Origin: Methylacidimicrobium tartarophylax
Lineage (GTDB): Bacteria; Verrucomicrobiota; Verrucomicrobiia; Methylacidiphilales; Methylacidiphilaceae
Assembly: GCF_902143375.2 (NCBI RefSeq)
Contig: NZ_CABFVA020000086.1
Span: forward strand, 1 to 51,962
DNA: 51,962 nt
Direction of reading: 5' to 3'
The position numbers and the translations under genes are program-made. Numbering within the stretch: position 1 is the stretch's first letter; each line of letters opens with the position of its first letter. Below are positions 2,658-40,330 of the stretch, piece after piece. The notes beneath the pieces were generated by a model. It was not told the DNA's origin, ran no database searches, and saw only the letters and a list, made by a program, of their open reading frames with translations.

Positions 2658-5345
2658 ATGAGTTACGTAATGTCATTGTCGCGCAGGACTCGATGGGAAT
2701 GGTCCTCCCTTCTTGCGCGGTTTGGCCTTCTTTCGTGGCTTCTGCTCGGTGGAACGGGAGCATTCGCTTCTAGCGATGCCGACCTCTCGACCCCGACGGA
2801 AGTTGATCCGCTTCCCTCTCCCACGCAAAAAAGCAAGCCTGCCAATCTCTCCCCGGGAACCGCCTCGAAGCCATCCTCCCAGACGGTGACCTTGCCGGAG
2901 GTCGATGTCACCGCTACCTCCGAATGGACCTCCCCGGAGCTCAGCTCAGGCGAGCCCAACGCTCCGATTCTGCCTACCGCCGCCCCCGTCATCTCCACCT
3001 ACGGCGTTCCCACCGACGTCATGGATACGCCCCGCCAGATCACTCCGGTCAACCAGACCCTGCTCAAGGCCGCCGGAACGCTCTATCAGGGCTATATCGA
3101 TCCCATCTCCCTCTCCTCCATTTTGCCCACTGCCTATACGCAAATTAACGGAGGAATGAACGACTCCATCACGATCCGCGGACGCCAGGCCCTCCCCTAC
3201 ATCAATGGCATTGAAGTCACCCTGCAGAACAACGCCCAGGCGATGGTCCCCTGGAGCTGGAACATGGTCGAATCGATGGACATCCAAGAAGGACCGGCGA
3301 ATGCGGTCTTTGGAGCGACCCAGGCATCGACCGGAAGCGTCAACTACATTACGAAGCAACCCTACTTCGATCAGTTTCGCGGCCGCGTCTGGGACACGAC
3401 CGGGATGTATGACCAGTACCTCTGGGGCGCCGATGCCGGCGGGCCGGTCAACGATAAGGTCGCGTGGCGCTTCTCCTACATGGGGCAGGACCAAGGCAGC
3501 TACTACCAGTACATGTATAACCGGCAGGAAAATTTTTACGTCGCCGTGGGCGCCAAGCCTTACGAGAACTACAAGATCGATTTCTATGGAGACTACGGTA
3601 GCTACGACTTCTATCCGCAATTCGTTGACATGATGAACCGGCCGACCAACGCCCTGATTCGCAACGGCCTATATAACACCGGGGTCGTGCCCGGCTTCCC
3701 CGGGTCCGTCGCGCAAGGCGGCCCGATCACCGGCTCGCCCACCAATCCCGCGTTCTCCACGTATGCGGGTTCCGTGGTCCCGATCAATCGCCGCGCCACT
3801 CTCTGGTCCCCCTATGGCGGCGGACAGGGAACGACCGGCCTCGCCCAGCTCGTTCAGAGCCTGACCGTCAGCGAGGACCTCGCGATCGTCAACAACACGA
3901 TGTTCTGGTACTCCAGCGCCCAGTTCGTGGAGCCTCAGGTTTACTACTCCGAGTATGTTCCGGGGGATTACGAAATCGACAACCGCACCGAAGTCCGCTG
4001 GAGCTACGATCCACTCGCGGAACAGTCCGAGCACCGGAGAAGCCGGCGCGAGCAGGATCTCCTGGAAACCGCCTTCGGCAGCCTCCGCCTCCATAACGTG
4101 ATCGATACCGGCCTGGAATGGCACTACCAATATAACAACGACTATCTCTCCCAGAACGTGATGAATTACAGCAACTCCTGGAGCATCGCAAACCCTGCGG
4201 CTCCCGGACTGACCAATCCCGCCCTCTTCTATCTTCCTTCCACCAAACAGTTTCGCAGCTACATCAATAATCCGCATGCATCCGGCGGAGGCGAGTGGCA
4301 GATCCCCGGCGCTCCCGCAGGATACTACTACGAACCCCTCAACGGCGCAGGCGGGACCACGTTCGGCGACTACTGGGCCGTTGCCCCCTTCTTTCAAAAC
4401 AACCTCGATATCACCGAAAAGCTGAGCCTCTATTTCGGCGTCCGAGCCACCGGCTACTTCTGGGACTATTCCACGCCGGCCGGTCCGGCCGGAATGCCCC
4501 AGATCCCCAACCTGACCTCCGCCAGCCTACAGCAAAGCTCCCTCAACCCGCTGCTGGAAATCAGCCCGGTCTACAAGCCCTTTCCCTGGATGACGACCTA
4601 TTTCACCTACAACTGGTCCTATGTGACGAATGCCGCCGCGTTCGGAGGGGCGGCTCCGACGTTCGACGCCGCTTCCTTTCGCCTCCTCAACCAGTTGATC
4701 GAAGGCGGGCTCAAGTTCAACCTCCTCGATGACAAACTCTTTGTGACCGCCGCCGGCTTCAGCCAAAACCAGGCGCTCAACAACATCAGCCTTCCCGCCA
4801 CCCTCGCGCAGATCAACGGCTACGAGGTCAACATCGCCTACCAGCCGAATCGCAACTGGTGGGCACGCCTCGGTTACATCTATATGCACGGCATCGAAAA
4901 CTGGAGCTCTCTTCCTCACGGCCCGTCGATGGCACAGAACTACTCAACGGCGATCGCCTTGCAAGAGGGGCTGGCGCTCAACACGAGCTCCGTTTTCCCT
5001 TCCGGGATCTACAACATGATCGGATTCCCCGACCAGTACGCCAGCGGCACCATCACCTATACTTCGGATGCCGGGATCGGCGTGACCTTGCAAGGGATCG
5101 CCATGAGCCGCCAATATTTGGACTATTTCTACGATACCTATATCCCATCGCAATTTTTGATGAACCTGCAGGTTTTCTACACGCAACCGAAGTGGGAGCT
5201 CCGGCTGTACATCTACAACCTCGGCAACCAGAATTACTGGTTGCCTTTCGGGGTCGGCTCCAGCGGGACGCGGACCTTCGACGAAGAAAACATCGTCGCG
5301 GGATGGCCTTTCTGGATCGAGGGAACCGCAATCTGGAAATTCTAG
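2658..5345 (+). CDS. TonB-dependent outer-membrane receptor
   Basis: An 895-aa outer-membrane receptor for high-affinity uptake of a scarce ligand driven by TonB-ExbBD. Residues about 1-38 form a signal peptide (basic start, hydrophobic core, cut near AFASS). A proline/serine-rich linker and a TonB-box-like LPEVDVTAT (about 79-87) follow. The plug contains SITIRGRQALPYINGIEV and the IQEGPANAVFGATQASTGSVNYITKQ segment, and an aromatic-rich beta-barrel ends in the terminal Phe typical of outer-membrane proteins. Starts at 2658, 2670 and 2694 are all possible; the longest is given. The substrate cannot be read from sequence. The Met-rich porin downstream makes a metal or metallophore ligand possible, but that is inference. 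Confidence 0.9.
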   Translation: MSYVMSLSRRTRWEWSSLLARFGLLSWLLLGGTGAFASSDADLSTPTEVDPLPSPTQKSKPANLSPGTASKPSSQTVTLPEVDVTATSEWTSPELSSGEPNAPILPTAAPVISTYGVPTDVMDTPRQITPVNQTLLKAAGTLYQGYIDPISLSSILPTAYTQINGGMNDSITIRGRQALPYINGIEVTLQNNAQAMVPWSWNMVESMDIQEGPANAVFGATQASTGSVNYITKQPYFDQFRGRVWDTTGMYDQYLWGADAGGPVNDKVAWRFSYMGQDQGSYYQYMYNRQENFYVAVGAKPYENYKIDFYGDYGSYDFYPQFVDMMNRPTNALIRNGLYNTGVVPGFPGSVAQGGPITGSPTNPAFSTYAGSVVPINRRATLWSPYGGGQGTTGLAQLVQSLTVSEDLAIVNNTMFWYSSAQFVEPQVYYSEYVPGDYEIDNRTEVRWSYDPLAEQSEHRRSRREQDLLETAFGSLRLHNVIDTGLEWHYQYNNDYLSQNVMNYSNSWSIANPAAPGLTNPALFYLPSTKQFRSYINNPHASGGGEWQIPGAPAGYYYEPLNGAGGTTFGDYWAVAPFFQNNLDITEKLSLYFGVRATGYFWDYSTPAGPAGMPQIPNLTSASLQQSSLNPLLEISPVYKPFPWMTTYFTYNWSYVTNAAAFGGAAPTFDAASFRLLNQLIEGGLKFNLLDDKLFVTAAGFSQNQALNNISLPATLAQINGYEVNIAYQPNRNWWARLGYIYMHGIENWSSLPHGPSMAQNYSTAIALQEGLALNTSSVFPSGIYNMIGFPDQYASGTITYTSDAGIGVTLQGIAMSRQYLDYFYDTYIPSQFLMNLQVFYTQPKWELRLYIYNLGNQNYWLPFGVGSSGTRTFDEENIVAGWPFWIEGTAIWKF

Positions 5346-17975: not shown

Positions 17976-18724
17976 TGTCGGTCTATACTCTTTTTCTTTT
18001 GGCGGCAGGCCAGGCGAATCCCCGCGTGGTCCCGGAAGCGATCAGCCTTTTTGAGATCATCCACCGCGGCGGGCTCGTCATGTGGCCGATCCTTCTCTGC
18101 AGCGTCCTCGCCGCCGGGGTCTTCCTGGAGCGGATGCTCTTCTACCGAAAAGCGGAGTGCAATGTGGACTCCTTCCTGACCGGTCTTGGGAACTTACTGC
18201 GGAAGGGAAGATACGAGGAAGCCCTCCTTCGCTGCCAGGAAACGCCCGCCCGGGCGGCCGAGATCGCGCGGCAGGCAATCCTGCGGCGGGATTATCCGCC
18301 GGCCGAACTGCGGGAGATGACACGGGAGGCGTCCCAGCTCGCTCTGCCCCCGCTCGAAGCCCACCTCCCCATTTTAGCGACGATCAGCTATGTCGCCCCT
18401 CTTCTCGGCCTTTTGGGAACCATTACCGGCATGATCGAGGCGTTTCTCGCCATGAACCGGGCCTCGGGCTCGGTCTCGGTGAGCGACCTGGCCTCGGGCA
18501 TCTGGGTGGCCCTAGTGAGCGCCGCCGCGGGAATCGCGGTAGCCATTCCCACCTCGATCGCTTATAATTATCTTTTAATCCGCGTTACGGCGATCGCGCA
18601 GGACATCGAACGCGTAGCCATCGAGGTTCTGCACGCGCTCGCCGACGGCAAAAGATCGAACCGTGCCGCTTCCTTCCCCAACGAGATTGCAGCCTCGCTT
18701 GGCCCTGCTGCGCGGGACGACTGA
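17975..18724 (+). CDS. MotA/TolQ/ExbB proton-channel family protein
   Basis: A 249-aa inner-membrane protein with three helices (about 30-50, 135-155 and 170-195). The signature PLLGLLGTITGMIEAF lies in helix 2 and VALVSAAAGIAVAIPTSIAYN in helix 3. With the ExbD-like and TonB-like genes that follow it forms a proton-driven motor energising outer-membrane receptors. The ATG at 17975 overlaps the preceding stop by one base. Its 3' end overlaps the next gene by 62 nt. The TonB receptor at 2658 is a plausible but unproven client. Confidence 0.88.
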   Translation: MSVYTLFLLAAGQANPRVVPEAISLFEIIHRGGLVMWPILLCSVLAAGVFLERMLFYRKAECNVDSFLTGLGNLLRKGRYEEALLRCQETPARAAEIARQAILRRDYPPAELREMTREASQLALPPLEAHLPILATISYVAPLLGLLGTITGMIEAFLAMNRASGSVSVSDLASGIWVALVSAAAGIAVAIPTSIAYNYLLIRVTAIAQDIERVAIEVLHALADGKRSNRAASFPNEIAASLGPAARDD

Positions 18725-37165: not shown

Positions 37166-38299
37166 TTAAAATCCGTGGCGAGCCCGATCGCTCAACTGGC
37201 CGATCCGTCGGATGATTGCTTCGTTGACCGGTCCGAGCAGTGAACTCCCGCGAGGAAACGCAAAGGCATAATCGATGCGTTCCAGTGTTCGCGGCGTGAT
37301 TTCGATCTCCCCGGCATGGGCAGTTCGCACCAAATACCGTAACGTGGGTTCGCGCAGGACAACCGCGTCGATTTTTCCGGCAATCAGCGCGGCCAGACAA
37401 TCCTTGGCGGTCGGGAAGGTCAGAGCGCGGATCTTTTCCCCGGATAGGAACTTCTCTCCTATGCCGCCTTTAACGCAACCCAAGCGCAGCCCCTCCATTC
37501 CCCGTTGCTGGAGGGACTGGTTGCTCACCTTTTCCACCGCGACGCCCGCCGTTACCCACGCGGTAAAGAAGGAGATCAAGACAACGCCCACAAACATCCA
37601 GACCAAGGCAATGGCTCTCCCCTTCGGCGTCCGGGGCACTTTGTCCCCATAGCCGATCGTCGTCATCGTCACGGCTGCCCACCAGAAAGCGCTTCCGATG
37701 CCGTGGAGCGTCTTCCCGCCGAAATGGTCCGGATTCTCCCTGCGCTCCACGAGCCAAATCATGATGCCGGCAAGAAAGGTAAGGAAGAGGAGCCCGCCCA
37801 TCACGTAGGCGAACTCCCGGCTGAAAAGGAAGTGCAGCACCGCCCATGCGGTGCTCGTGCTCTCGGAGCGAAAGGCCAAAGCCAGGGAAGACGAATAATA
37901 CGGATAGCTGTAAGAGACCTCCCGACCCAGCTCCGGCGTAACGGCGAGTCCCAACGCCACGACATCGACTCGACCTTCTTTCAGCGCCCGGACCACAGCG
38001 ACGGGGTCGACCGGCAAATCGACGAATCGATAGGCGAGTCCGAGATCCCCGGCAATCTCCCGCCACAAGTCAATCGCCATGCCTTGCCATTCGCCCGAAG
38101 GATCCCGCCAGGCGAACGGAGGTTCCTCGCTCGCGGCGACGCGAAGAACCGGAGCGGGACCGGGAGAGAAAGCGCGGATATTGTCGGCTGCGATCCCGGA
38201 AAAAAGAGAACCGCCGAAAAGAAAGAGAGTACCAAGCGCGGCGATTCCTGCCCAAAACCGCATGCGTCGAGGTCGAACTCCGCTCCGATCAGACACCAT
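37166..38299 (-). CDS. GluR0-like ligand-gated potassium channel (SBP-channel fusion)
   Basis: A 377-aa protein with the architecture of prokaryotic ionotropic glutamate receptors: signal peptide (to about 38), first lobe of a solute-binding domain (VLRVAASEEPPFAWRDPSGE, GMAIDLWREIAGDLGL), helix 1 (about 165-185), a pore loop with the K+ filter TTIGYGD (213-219), helix 2 (about 228-252), then the second ligand lobe (VKGGIGEKFL, AALIAGKIDAVVLREPTLRY). It would open a K+ pore when an amino acid or similar ligand binds in the periplasm. The ligand is unknown. Start at 38299 or 38263. Confidence 0.88.
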   Translation of the reverse strand: MVSDRSGVRPRRMRFWAGIAALGTLFLFGGSLFSGIAADNIRAFSPGPAPVLRVAASEEPPFAWRDPSGEWQGMAIDLWREIAGDLGLAYRFVDLPVDPVAVVRALKEGRVDVVALGLAVTPELGREVSYSYPYYSSSLALAFRSESTSTAWAVLHFLFSREFAYVMGGLLFLTFLAGIMIWLVERRENPDHFGGKTLHGIGSAFWWAAVTMTTIGYGDKVPRTPKGRAIALVWMFVGVVLISFFTAWVTAGVAVEKVSNQSLQQRGMEGLRLGCVKGGIGEKFLSGEKIRALTFPTAKDCLAALIAGKIDAVVLREPTLRYLVRTAHAGEIEITPRTLERIDYAFAFPRGSSLLGPVNEAIIRRIGQLSDRARHGF

Positions 38300-38399: not shown

Positions 38400-39224
38400 C
38401 TAGACGGCCTCTACTTGGCCCCGCCCCTGAGTCCCCGCTTGCTTACCGACTTTGCCGATCGCGGATTCGACCGCCTGTCTCCAGCTCCCGAAAAATCGGC
38501 GCTTGCATGCAGCCGCGAAGAGGGACGGCTCCCGATTGCGCACTTCGGTGCTGGTGAGAGACACCCCCTGCTCCCCGAGGGCGCGAATCTGATCGAGGAT
38601 TTCGGCCTCGGTCCAGCGTTTCCTCTTTCGAATCTTCGCATAATCAAGCCCGGCGCGCTCTACGGCGGCACCCCAACTCCCGAACCTCCGTCTGGCGGTG
38701 GCAATCAACGAGTTGGCCCGCTCATCCATGTACTTGGAACTCAAGTCCTCCCCTTCCGCATGGAGGCGACGGATCTCCCGCAGGATGTCCGCCTCTTTCC
38801 AGGAGCGATATCGATAGATGTCCGCGGGAGCGAGCCCCGCAGCGAGAAGGGCGTTCCTCCAACTCCCGAAATAGACGGGCCGGATCGCGGCGTAGACCAT
38901 CGGCGCATATGGGCTAAGCATCAACGCCCGGAACGACAGATCCGCTCCTTGCGCATGGAGCAGACGAATTCGCTCCACAATGCTTTTCTTTGACCATCGT
39001 TGGTAGCGGCGAACCTCCGCATACGAAAGTCCTGCCGCTTCCACCGCTTTGCCCCAACTGCCGAAGTAGCGGATGCCCGCAGCGAGAAGTTCCTGGAAAT
39101 GCTGGCGCATGTAGTGCGAGTAGAGAGGACGCCCCTGCCGGTGCCACGCACGGATCTCCCGAAGGAGAATCGCTTCGCTCCATTCCCGATTTTTTCCCTC
39201 AATCGGAACTTCGATGGTTTTCAT
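38400..39224 (-). CDS. four-repeat FGSW protein (homing-endonuclease-associated repeat-like)
   Basis: A 274-aa protein made almost entirely of four tandem repeats of about 60 residues. Each starts with W(S/K/T)xxxI and an I+xLHxxGxxLS helix and ends FGSWxxAVExAGLxYA+I+. This resembles the HNH/homing-endonuclease-associated repeat (PF18780 type), a small helical, possibly nucleic-acid-binding unit, but no nuclease domain is present. A strong promoter with TTGACA precedes it. Function unknown; binding of DNA or RNA is inference. The ATG at 39224 is given; a TTG at 39239 is also in frame. Confidence 0.75.
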   Translation of the reverse strand: MKTIEVPIEGKNREWSEAILLREIRAWHRQGRPLYSHYMRQHFQELLAAGIRYFGSWGKAVEAAGLSYAEVRRYQRWSKKSIVERIRLLHAQGADLSFRALMLSPYAPMVYAAIRPVYFGSWRNALLAAGLAPADIYRYRSWKEADILREIRRLHAEGEDLSSKYMDERANSLIATARRRFGSWGAAVERAGLDYAKIRKRKRWTEAEILDQIRALGEQGVSLTSTEVRNREPSLFAAACKRRFFGSWRQAVESAIGKVGKQAGTQGRGQVEAV

Positions 39225-39241: not shown

Positions 39242-39270
39242 AGAATAAACCTTGTTTGATTTCCTGTCAA
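39242..39270 (-). promoter_or_regulatory. sigma70 promoter of the four-repeat protein gene
   Basis: On the minus strand a perfect TTGACA (39270-39265) and TATTCT (39247-39242) are 17 bp apart. The region around it is A+T-rich, unlike most of the window. The ATG at 39224 lies 17 nt after the -10, leaving a very short leader without a Shine-Dalgarno. Confidence 0.65.
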
Positions 39271-39292
39271 TTATCTTCCCTTATGACAGCAC

Positions 39293-40330
39293 TTATTGTG
39301 CCACCTGTAAAGTTTTTGCGCAGATCGCTTCCAACTCTTCGCCCACCCGTGTGGGACGAATGTCGGCCAGACAGGCTACGGGCCTTTTTTGCGGACAACT
39401 GGTCCGCCAGCAAGGCGCGCAGGGAGCCGCAGCGGATAGCACGTGCACGTTTTCTCCTACAGCAGCGGATTCCCGCCAGTCCGTCGGACCAAAAAGGATG
39501 AGAGTCGGCACTCCGAGGGCGGCCGCCAAATGGGCGGGCCCGGAATCTGGACCGACGGTCGCCGCCGCATTGCCCAGGAGCGCCATCATCCTCCGCATCG
39601 GAAGCGCTCCGCGGAGGTCTAGCATGTTGTGCTCCTCGAGGGGAAACCACGGTCCCATTCCCATCGCCACGAAAAAGAGATGCGGAAGCGATCGCACAAG
39701 TTCCCTGTAATATCGCCAGGGCCAGAGCTTCGTCTTCCATCGCGCATAAGGGTGAAGAACCACGTAGGCACCCTTCCGCAATCCCGGGATGTCCAGAGGT
39801 CCCGCCCTCAGGCCATAATCCAGCGGCCCGGCCGGCACCCGCAGATACCGAAGGAACGCGAGATATCTCTCCTGAGCAGGAGGAGGTGGAGGCATGACCC
39901 GCTCGCGATAAAGGACGATCGAGCCTTCACGCCCGTTCCACGGGCCGATCCGGCGCCGCGCCCCGCTCCAAAGGCAGAGGAGCCCGCTTCGCAGAAGACC
40001 CTGCATGTCCAGCAATAGGTCGTAATGCTCTCCTCGAACGGAGGCAAGGCAGCGTGCGAGGTCACGGAGAAGGCCGCCCGGCGTCTCCCTCCGGCGCGGG
40101 AATTCCACAAATCGGTCGATCGCAGGGTGGTTGGTCAGAAGATCCCGGTACGCCTCGAAGGCCATCCAATGAATTTGCGCCGAGGGCCATCGCCTCCGCA
40201 AGCCCGCCGCCACGGGCAATGCCTGGACGACATCCCCAAGGGAGCTGAACTTGAGGACCAGGATCTTGTGCACGGGGAGATCTTCTTCCCGGATCCTCTC
40301 CGTCCAGGGACTGGAAATCCCCACGTTCAT
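39293..40330 (-). CDS. glycosyltransferase family 9 (heptosyltransferase)
   Basis: A 345-aa GT9 enzyme, the family of LPS inner-core heptosyltransferases (WaaC/WaaF). It has ILVLKFSSLGDVVQALPVA near the N-terminus and the nucleotide-sugar-binding VGPDSGPAHLAAALGVPTLILFGPTDW near the C-terminus. The family acts at the inner membrane to transfer heptose from ADP-heptose to the lipid A-Kdo core. Start at 40330 has AAAGGAGG two nt upstream, closer than usual; a GTG at residue 20 is an alternative. Divergent from cysK. Confidence 0.9.
   Translation of the reverse strand: MNVGISSPWTERIREEDLPVHKILVLKFSSLGDVVQALPVAAGLRRRWPSAQIHWMAFEAYRDLLTNHPAIDRFVEFPRRRETPGGLLRDLARCLASVRGEHYDLLLDMQGLLRSGLLCLWSGARRRIGPWNGREGSIVLYRERVMPPPPPAQERYLAFLRYLRVPAGPLDYGLRAGPLDIPGLRKGAYVVLHPYARWKTKLWPWRYYRELVRSLPHLFFVAMGMGPWFPLEEHNMLDLRGALPMRRMMALLGNAAATVGPDSGPAHLAAALGVPTLILFGPTDWRESAAVGENVHVLSAAAPCAPCWRTSCPQKRPVACLADIRPTRVGEELEAICAKTLQVAQ

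Follow-up and report, generated by a model that had tools for sequence, protein, structure and literature searches.

The analysed window is a stretch of 51,962 nucleotides from Methylacidimicrobium tartarophylax, and its minus strand contains an ORF of 274 aa that begins with the ATG at 39224 and codes for a protein with four repeats (Table 1). Pfam analysis of the whole protein assigned four stretches to PF18780 (HNH_repeat, homing endonuclease associated repeat; 91.6 bits versus a cut-off of 26, E = 3.9e-26), which was the sole match at E up to 0.01; within this limit neither a nuclease domain nor a Myb profile was found. The four units show 31–52% pairwise identity (alignment scores of 55–156 versus a shuffle maximum of 32; 500 shuffles, six pairs) and each carries the FGSW motif. 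An earlier sequence-only reading, which had described a nuclease-free protein of four FGSW repeats at this place, was thus right in coordinates, repeat number, motif and the missing nuclease domain. The protein is basic (pI 10.3, net charge +19), as were all 14 full-length orthologues for which these values were computed (pI 9.5–10.4, net charge +8 to +21), and it is the only one in its own genome (2.3 Mb) to match PF18780. NCBIfam holds no family for it, PHROGs 22655 (function unassigned) matches it with E = 2.6e-15, and a search of the PDB by sequence gave no meaningful match. No PADLOC defence-system model matched up to E = 1, and the only RNA-family match reaching the gathering threshold in the window was a tRNA.

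Table 1. Features at the FGSW-repeat locus (positions in the window)
Feature	Position	Strand	Basis
Gene of 274 aa with a short N-terminal arm, four PF18780 repeats and a variable C-terminal tail (low confidence)	38400..39224	-	ORF, Pfam, model
Repeat 1, residues 15-74	39003..39182	-	repeat profile, pairwise alignment, model
Repeat 2, residues 77-139; exceeds the other units by three to four residues	38808..38996	-	
Repeat 3, residues 142-201; top Pfam score of the four units; modelled alone, mean pLDDT 84.9	38622..38801	-	
Repeat 4, residues 204-257	38454..38615	-	
-35 box TTGACA	39265..39270	-	kept in 7/7 genus loci
-10 box TATTCT	39242..39247	-	TATxxT in 7/7 genus loci
Block AGGGAAGATAATTGAC, conserved in the genus and extending into the -35 box	39266..39281	-	upstream alignment
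Sigma54-type element TGGCACAATAAGTGCT with GG-N10-GC; overlaps the last part of the heptosyltransferase gene	39288..39303	-	upstream comparison
Conserved upstream neighbour, glycosyltransferase family 9 (heptosyltransferase)	39293..40330	-	Pfam, locus comparison
Downstream gene with SBP_bac_3 and ion-channel profiles (Ion_trans_2, Lig_chan)	37166-38299	-	Pfam

Throughout the family, the gene order cysK, heptosyltransferase, FGSW-repeat gene, channel, RND permease was kept; at the single genus-3 locus no channel or permease lay within the 15 kb examined, and on the short contigs L072 and L073 only part of this order is visible. The channel gene, which we take to be glutamate-receptor-like, adjoins the FGSW-repeat gene in both main genera of the family. 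Across the order, a relative of the window's glycosyltransferase family 9 gene was found upstream on the same strand at 33 of 53 loci (about 8 kb distant at one f2 locus), and in f65 the upstream gene is presumably metallophosphatase-like instead of a heptosyltransferase.

The order includes acid-loving methane-oxidising bacteria. All seven genomes of the genus and all 13 of the family encode the protein, the other twelve family sequences being 66–95% identical to the window protein; the closest relatives with a name are Methylacidimicrobium cyclopophantes, at 89% protein identity, and two genomes of Candidatus Methylacidiphilaceae, at 92 and 95%. An order-wide profile built from 14 orthologues matched 61 of 62 genomes in 15 of 15 genera, among them 28/28 of the good genomes (≥90% complete, ≤5% contaminated), and the only genome without a match (G481) is 66% complete. 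As a rule one full-length copy is present per genome, also in genomes of 1.3–1.9 Mb; the exceptions were two pieces in G427 and G423, a partial copy in G474 and a second, weaker match in G366 and G482. In a class-wide draw 58 of 286 genomes matched, 54 of which belong to the same order, and among the four matches outside the order only that in G298 was nearly full length; in a phylum draw any PF18780 match was found in 35 of 288 genomes. The comparison comprised 54 loci (the window, 13 and 40 others), of which 53 came from the order with its 61 positive genomes and one (L282) from outside it. Exactly four repeats were present in all 54 orthologues, as determined with a repeat profile derived from 14 of them.

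The gene has been inherited vertically within the order: in the protein tree each family with more than one row formed a single group (12 groups, 11 changes, the minimum possible), with the reservation that support for the f62 group is weak (65/88) and that L282 and f67 are long branches of unsure placement. In five comparisons the pN/pS of the gene was 0.09–0.16, which is below the values of the heptosyltransferase (0.21–0.26) and channel (0.16–0.27) genes, similar to those of cysK and apt, and above that of rpoD (0.06–0.08). Its GC3 is 0.695, compared with 0.69–0.81 in the eight neighbours measured, and its codon usage lies within their range. A TAG in G009 that was considered as a premature stop is the gene's own stop, since the frame of L079 ends there after a full-length protein. 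A tblastn profile scan of viral contigs found no close relatives; distant PF18780-like ORFs are numerous on such contigs, one match was found among phage records, and 43 plasmid records matched, all with less than 60% identity.

Among the matches listed, at least 161 ORFs matched the repeat profile from the orthologues, a number that is not a gene count since loci overlap; ten relatives chosen by hand were subjected to a Pfam scan. An HNH domain is joined to the repeats in L036 and L037, which bears out the likeness to units beside homing/HNH nucleases noted from the sequence, and an HTH_3 (Cro/C1-type) domain is joined to them in L144 and L127 (viral contigs) and in L067 (Bacillota MAG, broken frame). 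The tandem repeats of these three HTH_3 proteins are similar to those of the window protein (25–34% identical where aligned), which differs in having no C-terminal Cro/C1-type HTH domain. Matches below the cut-off were a ROS/MucR domain in L062 and one Myb_DNA-bind_7 match in L126 (viral contig; 3115–5145, 677 aa), a protein with a cysteine-rich region, one repeat, an unassigned stretch and then four repeats. It is mainly because the above-cut-off partner domains outside the repeats are DNA-binding or DNA-cutting that DNA is the preferred ligand, and judged from these sequences the FGSW-repeat protein likely binds DNA. At L067 (3607–4587), the frame with the repeats and the Cro/C1 HTH is split into two pieces, and the ORF beside it is presumably serine-recombinase-like.

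The sequence-only reading had proposed a search for repeat-number variation among homologues; such variation was found in the wider family, with up to 14 PF18780 stretches in a protein of 824 aa on a Bacillus subtilis plasmid (L212, 3750–6221) and nine on a Halobacterium plasmid (L211), and not among the orthologues. The L212 protein lies near further repeat-profile ORFs and an annotated site-specific integrase. Stand-alone relatives with three repeats occur elsewhere in the phylum (11 aligned) and are likewise PF18780-type arrays, 10 of the 11 with little else; unlike the gene studied here they are patchy: in the order of G020, 43 of 137 genomes have them, as do 27 of the 61 good genomes, and some genomes carry several copies. 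In G293 and G519 multiple three-repeat gene copies are present per genome, some in pieces, perhaps as a result of local expansion. One three-repeat relative (L048, 1300–2223) has a long lysine/alanine-rich C-terminal tail that is absent from the ten others in the alignment and that, as we take it, resembles the tail of histone H1.

The units were predicted to be all-helical. The AlphaFold2 model of a single repeat (39 sequences; pLDDT 84.9, pTM 0.69) has five helices at positions 7–19, 26–32, 34–44, 47–53 and 58–63. The whole-protein model (ten sequences; mean pLDDT 79.4) has ten-residue pLDDT means of 68–94 in the repeats and below 50 at the ends, and its pTM is 0.36, so that the mutual orientation of the units cannot be read from it. 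Foldseek against the PDB gave nothing at E ≤ 0.001 (best E of 0.66 for the whole model and 1.6 for one repeat), and BFVD gave one match with E = 1.5e-4, to an uncharacterised siphovirus protein. In VIA-align, repeat 4 of the whole model matched mostly TetR-family proteins (best Z 4.5, rmsd 3.7, 56 residues), and the single repeat matched ribosomal proteins (Z 3.8–2.8, rmsd 3.0–3.3 over 61–63 residues, including the best row), two TetR-like regulators, Cre recombinase and retron proteins; Z values of 4.5 and 3.8 are within reach of common helical arrangements. TetR-family DNA-binding domains likewise form a helical unit, but a Z of 4.5 is too low for a claim of shared fold and the window protein has no ligand domain. 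The models, with their low Z values and no significant match, are compatible with a helix-turn-helix-like unit but do not decide between it and other folds, SANT/Myb included.

Conservation is concentrated in the third helix. Among the 53 orthologues of the order, helix 3 was the best conserved helix in each repeat (0.82–0.92, versus 0.54–0.66 for helix 1), and most, though not all, of its positions reached a conservation of 0.9 or more. In repeat 2 helix 3 leads only narrowly, helix 2 reaching 0.80 there, and it does not stand alone, since the linker after helix 4 is about equally conserved (0.87 in the set including L282, versus 0.82–0.89 for helix 3). At positions that are variable in the wider family, mean conservation was 0.86 in helix 3 (n = 32), 0.47 in helix 1 (n = 32), 0.67 in helix 2 (n = 22) and 0.53 in helix 4 (n = 13); the Mann-Whitney p of 1.4e-8 for helix 3 against helix 1 is indicative, since positions and sequences are non-independent. 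The third helices differ between the units (QELLAAGIRYF, APMVYAAIRPVY, NSLIATARRRF and PSLFAAACKRRF), and the residues conserved at ≥90% include 16 basic and 6 acidic ones. This is the pattern that would be expected of binding helices that are not interchangeable, whatever their ligand; binding of RNA or protein would equally account for the conservation of helix 3.

Upstream of the gene, a sigma70-like promoter, TTGACA-17-TATTCT, spans 39270–39242. It had been called the best match to TTGACA-17-TATxxT in the window, and it is indeed the only occurrence of TTGACA-17-TAnnnT; by window-wide scoring, however, it shares the first place with TAGCCA-17-TATAAT (18540–18568). Its A+T-rich setting was described correctly, since it lies in the 56-bp stretch at 39218, whose G+C of 0.27 is the lowest anywhere in the 52 kb. 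By consensus alone the promoter is unremarkable (1 found in 4.9 kb versus 1.5 expected in shuffles), and it is taken for more than chance because it is conserved in relatives: TTGAC stands at a similar place at 13/13 family loci (in the full form TTGACA at all seven genus loci) and at a fixed place at 15/15 f65 loci, 3/3 f66 loci and one f67 locus, and it is scattered at six further loci. The upstream block AGGRAAGATAATTGACA (AGGRAAGATAATTGAC at 39266–39281) is unchanged at 7/7 genus loci, and its window form has no second exact match in its own genome and one place with two mismatches. A shared autoregulatory operator was not found in a search for 10-mers on the plus strand of one upstream sequence per group (17 groups), the top 10-mer occurring in 9 groups compared with 8–10 in shuffles.

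A putative second promoter type lies further upstream. The sequence TGGCACAATAAGTGCT (39303–39288), with its GG-N10-GC, fits the sigma54 -24/-12 pattern, given as tGGcacg / tTGCt in the available text of PMC4641369. The element was scored from 0 to 12 in the 170 nt upstream of an alignment-based anchor. Scores of at least 9 were reached at 7/7 genus loci, 4/6 f62 loci (the other two scoring 8), 10/10 f63 loci and the single f64 and genus-3 loci, and f106 scored 8; in these six groups, which were selected for carrying the element, 23 of 26 loci scored ≥9 and 17 of 26 scored ≥10, and at all 54 loci the corresponding numbers were 25 and 18. At 24 of the 26 loci no more than 4 of 200 shuffles scored as well, the exceptions being L073 (10) and L243 (18). 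Among control upstream regions of other conserved ORFs at the same loci (n = 158), which were set at the first start codon of each ORF and may be misplaced for some, 25 reached 8, five reached 9 and none reached 10. A single site means little, because the window holds on both strands 27 sites scoring ≥9 (six of them scoring 10); the weight comes from recurrence. Elsewhere scores were 0–7 in f65, f66 and f67, 0–8 in the family's genus 2 and, in f2, 0, 0 and 10; the GG-N10-GC sites of genus 2 that stand some 230 nt before the first repeat, and should by distance fall within the heptosyltransferase frame, lie beyond the 170 nt and were not counted. The organism's own genome carries the sigma54 gene (PF04552), as do 52 of the 62 genomes of the order. 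That some families lack the element because they lost rpoN was not supported, PF04552 being present in 16/21 f65, 3/3 f66 and 5/5 genus-2 genomes. In seven f65 genomes (G371, G391, G401, G404, G445, G479 and G486) rpoN lies about 11 kb from the FGSW-repeat gene on the same contig. The available part of PMC3162934 links sigma54 to genes for the outside of the bacterial cell, lipopolysaccharide among them, and the heptosyltransferase neighbour fits this link, which is only suggestive. Alternatively, the genus form of the element could be read as a small palindrome (GCAC-N5-GTGC), which takes the form GCAT-N5-ATGC in L073 and is broken in L068.

We infer, with a probability of roughly 0.6, that the gene encodes a stand-alone DNA-binding protein of four homing-endonuclease-associated repeats that was adopted by the cell as a regulator or chromosome organiser. 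Repeats of the homing type would have been taken over by the cell long ago and become a core gene of the order, usually in one copy. In the predicted unit the third helix, which ends just before FGSW, may be set against DNA. Since these helices are strongly conserved in every unit yet unlike one another, the four units together would recognise a single fixed composite site or a small number of sites, and the protein would regulate transcription or organise the chromosome; the supply of the protein may be set by one or two promoter types, used by sigma54 and sigma70 polymerases. The sequence-only reading had suggested a modular nucleic-acid-binding regulator; the homing-type repeats, the HTH and HNH partners, the basic charge and the helical prediction support this in part, and gene regulation through bound DNA would be its most likely role. 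A bolder version, in which homing-endonuclease repeats were domesticated as an order-wide core transcription factor with four different reading units, one long composite site and a promoter swapped between sigma54 and sigma70 during the history of the order, is tentative and on balance doubtful.

Several other readings have to be weighed. The small size, strong basicity and order-wide, as a rule single-copy occurrence of the protein, its sigma70-like promoter conserved in the family and the lysine/alanine-rich tail of a three-repeat relative would also suit a nucleoid-associated protein with little sequence preference in place of a regulator with defined sites; however, the distinct and highly conserved third helices suggest that the units are not interchangeable, and more variation would be expected in a protein that binds loosely, so that we consider this unlikely. 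We hold it to be less probable still that the protein binds RNA or is associated with the ribosome. In this reading the helical repeats would bind structured RNA. The protein is basic and conserved like housekeeping genes, and ribosomal proteins appear among the weak structural matches of the single repeat, but little can be built on Z values this low, and the fusion partners observed outside the repeats are domains that bind or cut DNA.

Two further readings tie the protein to a nuclease or a mobile element. In relatives these repeats are found together with HNH domains, which would suit a protein that guides a nuclease or recombinase whose gene lies elsewhere in the genome. Pfam detected no nuclease in the six neighbouring window genes that were scanned, and the genome yielded no further PF18780 protein; we regard such a role as very improbable. 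Equally improbable is that a homing or mobile element left behind a decaying, nuclease-less remnant, or that the gene was recently acquired from a foreign source, although the repeat family is met with on plasmids and viral contigs and next to HNH nucleases. The mobile, patchy distribution of homing endonucleases was not observed: the presence of the gene in 61 of 62 order genomes, the single tree groups, the conserved place and neighbours and the native composition (GC3 and codon usage like those of its neighbours) speak against the recent foreign origin that had been considered possible from the sequence, and purifying selection speaks against decay. An older origin from such an element, predating the order, is compatible with these data.

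The domesticated DNA-binding protein proposed here has a parallel in WhiA, which according to the available text of PMC3781837 is a transcription factor consisting of a degenerate LAGLIDADG homing-endonuclease domain and an HTH, and which is likewise a homing-endonuclease relative turned widespread cellular regulator. WhiA differs in that it belongs to another domain family and binds DNA via the added HTH (PMC3781837, same text), whereas the repeats of the window protein would bind themselves; in this comparison the likeness is confined to evolutionary history. The repeat family PF18780, to which the window protein belongs by four matched stretches, is known; what is new is a stand-alone version without a nuclease, with the number of units fixed at four (54/54), that is a core gene of an order. 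PF18780 is widespread, yet we found no paper on its function or DNA binding in the open literature searched and no solved relative by sequence; in print it appears, within the available part of that source, in one contact-based model. With its fixed number of units, usual single copy, strong selection and occurrence in named methanotroph genomes, the FGSW-repeat protein is a tractable protein for learning what these repeats do. It may be a second case beside WhiA in which parts of a homing enzyme turned into a core regulator, and should each unit recognise DNA on its own, the protein would offer a new modular scaffold for reading DNA.
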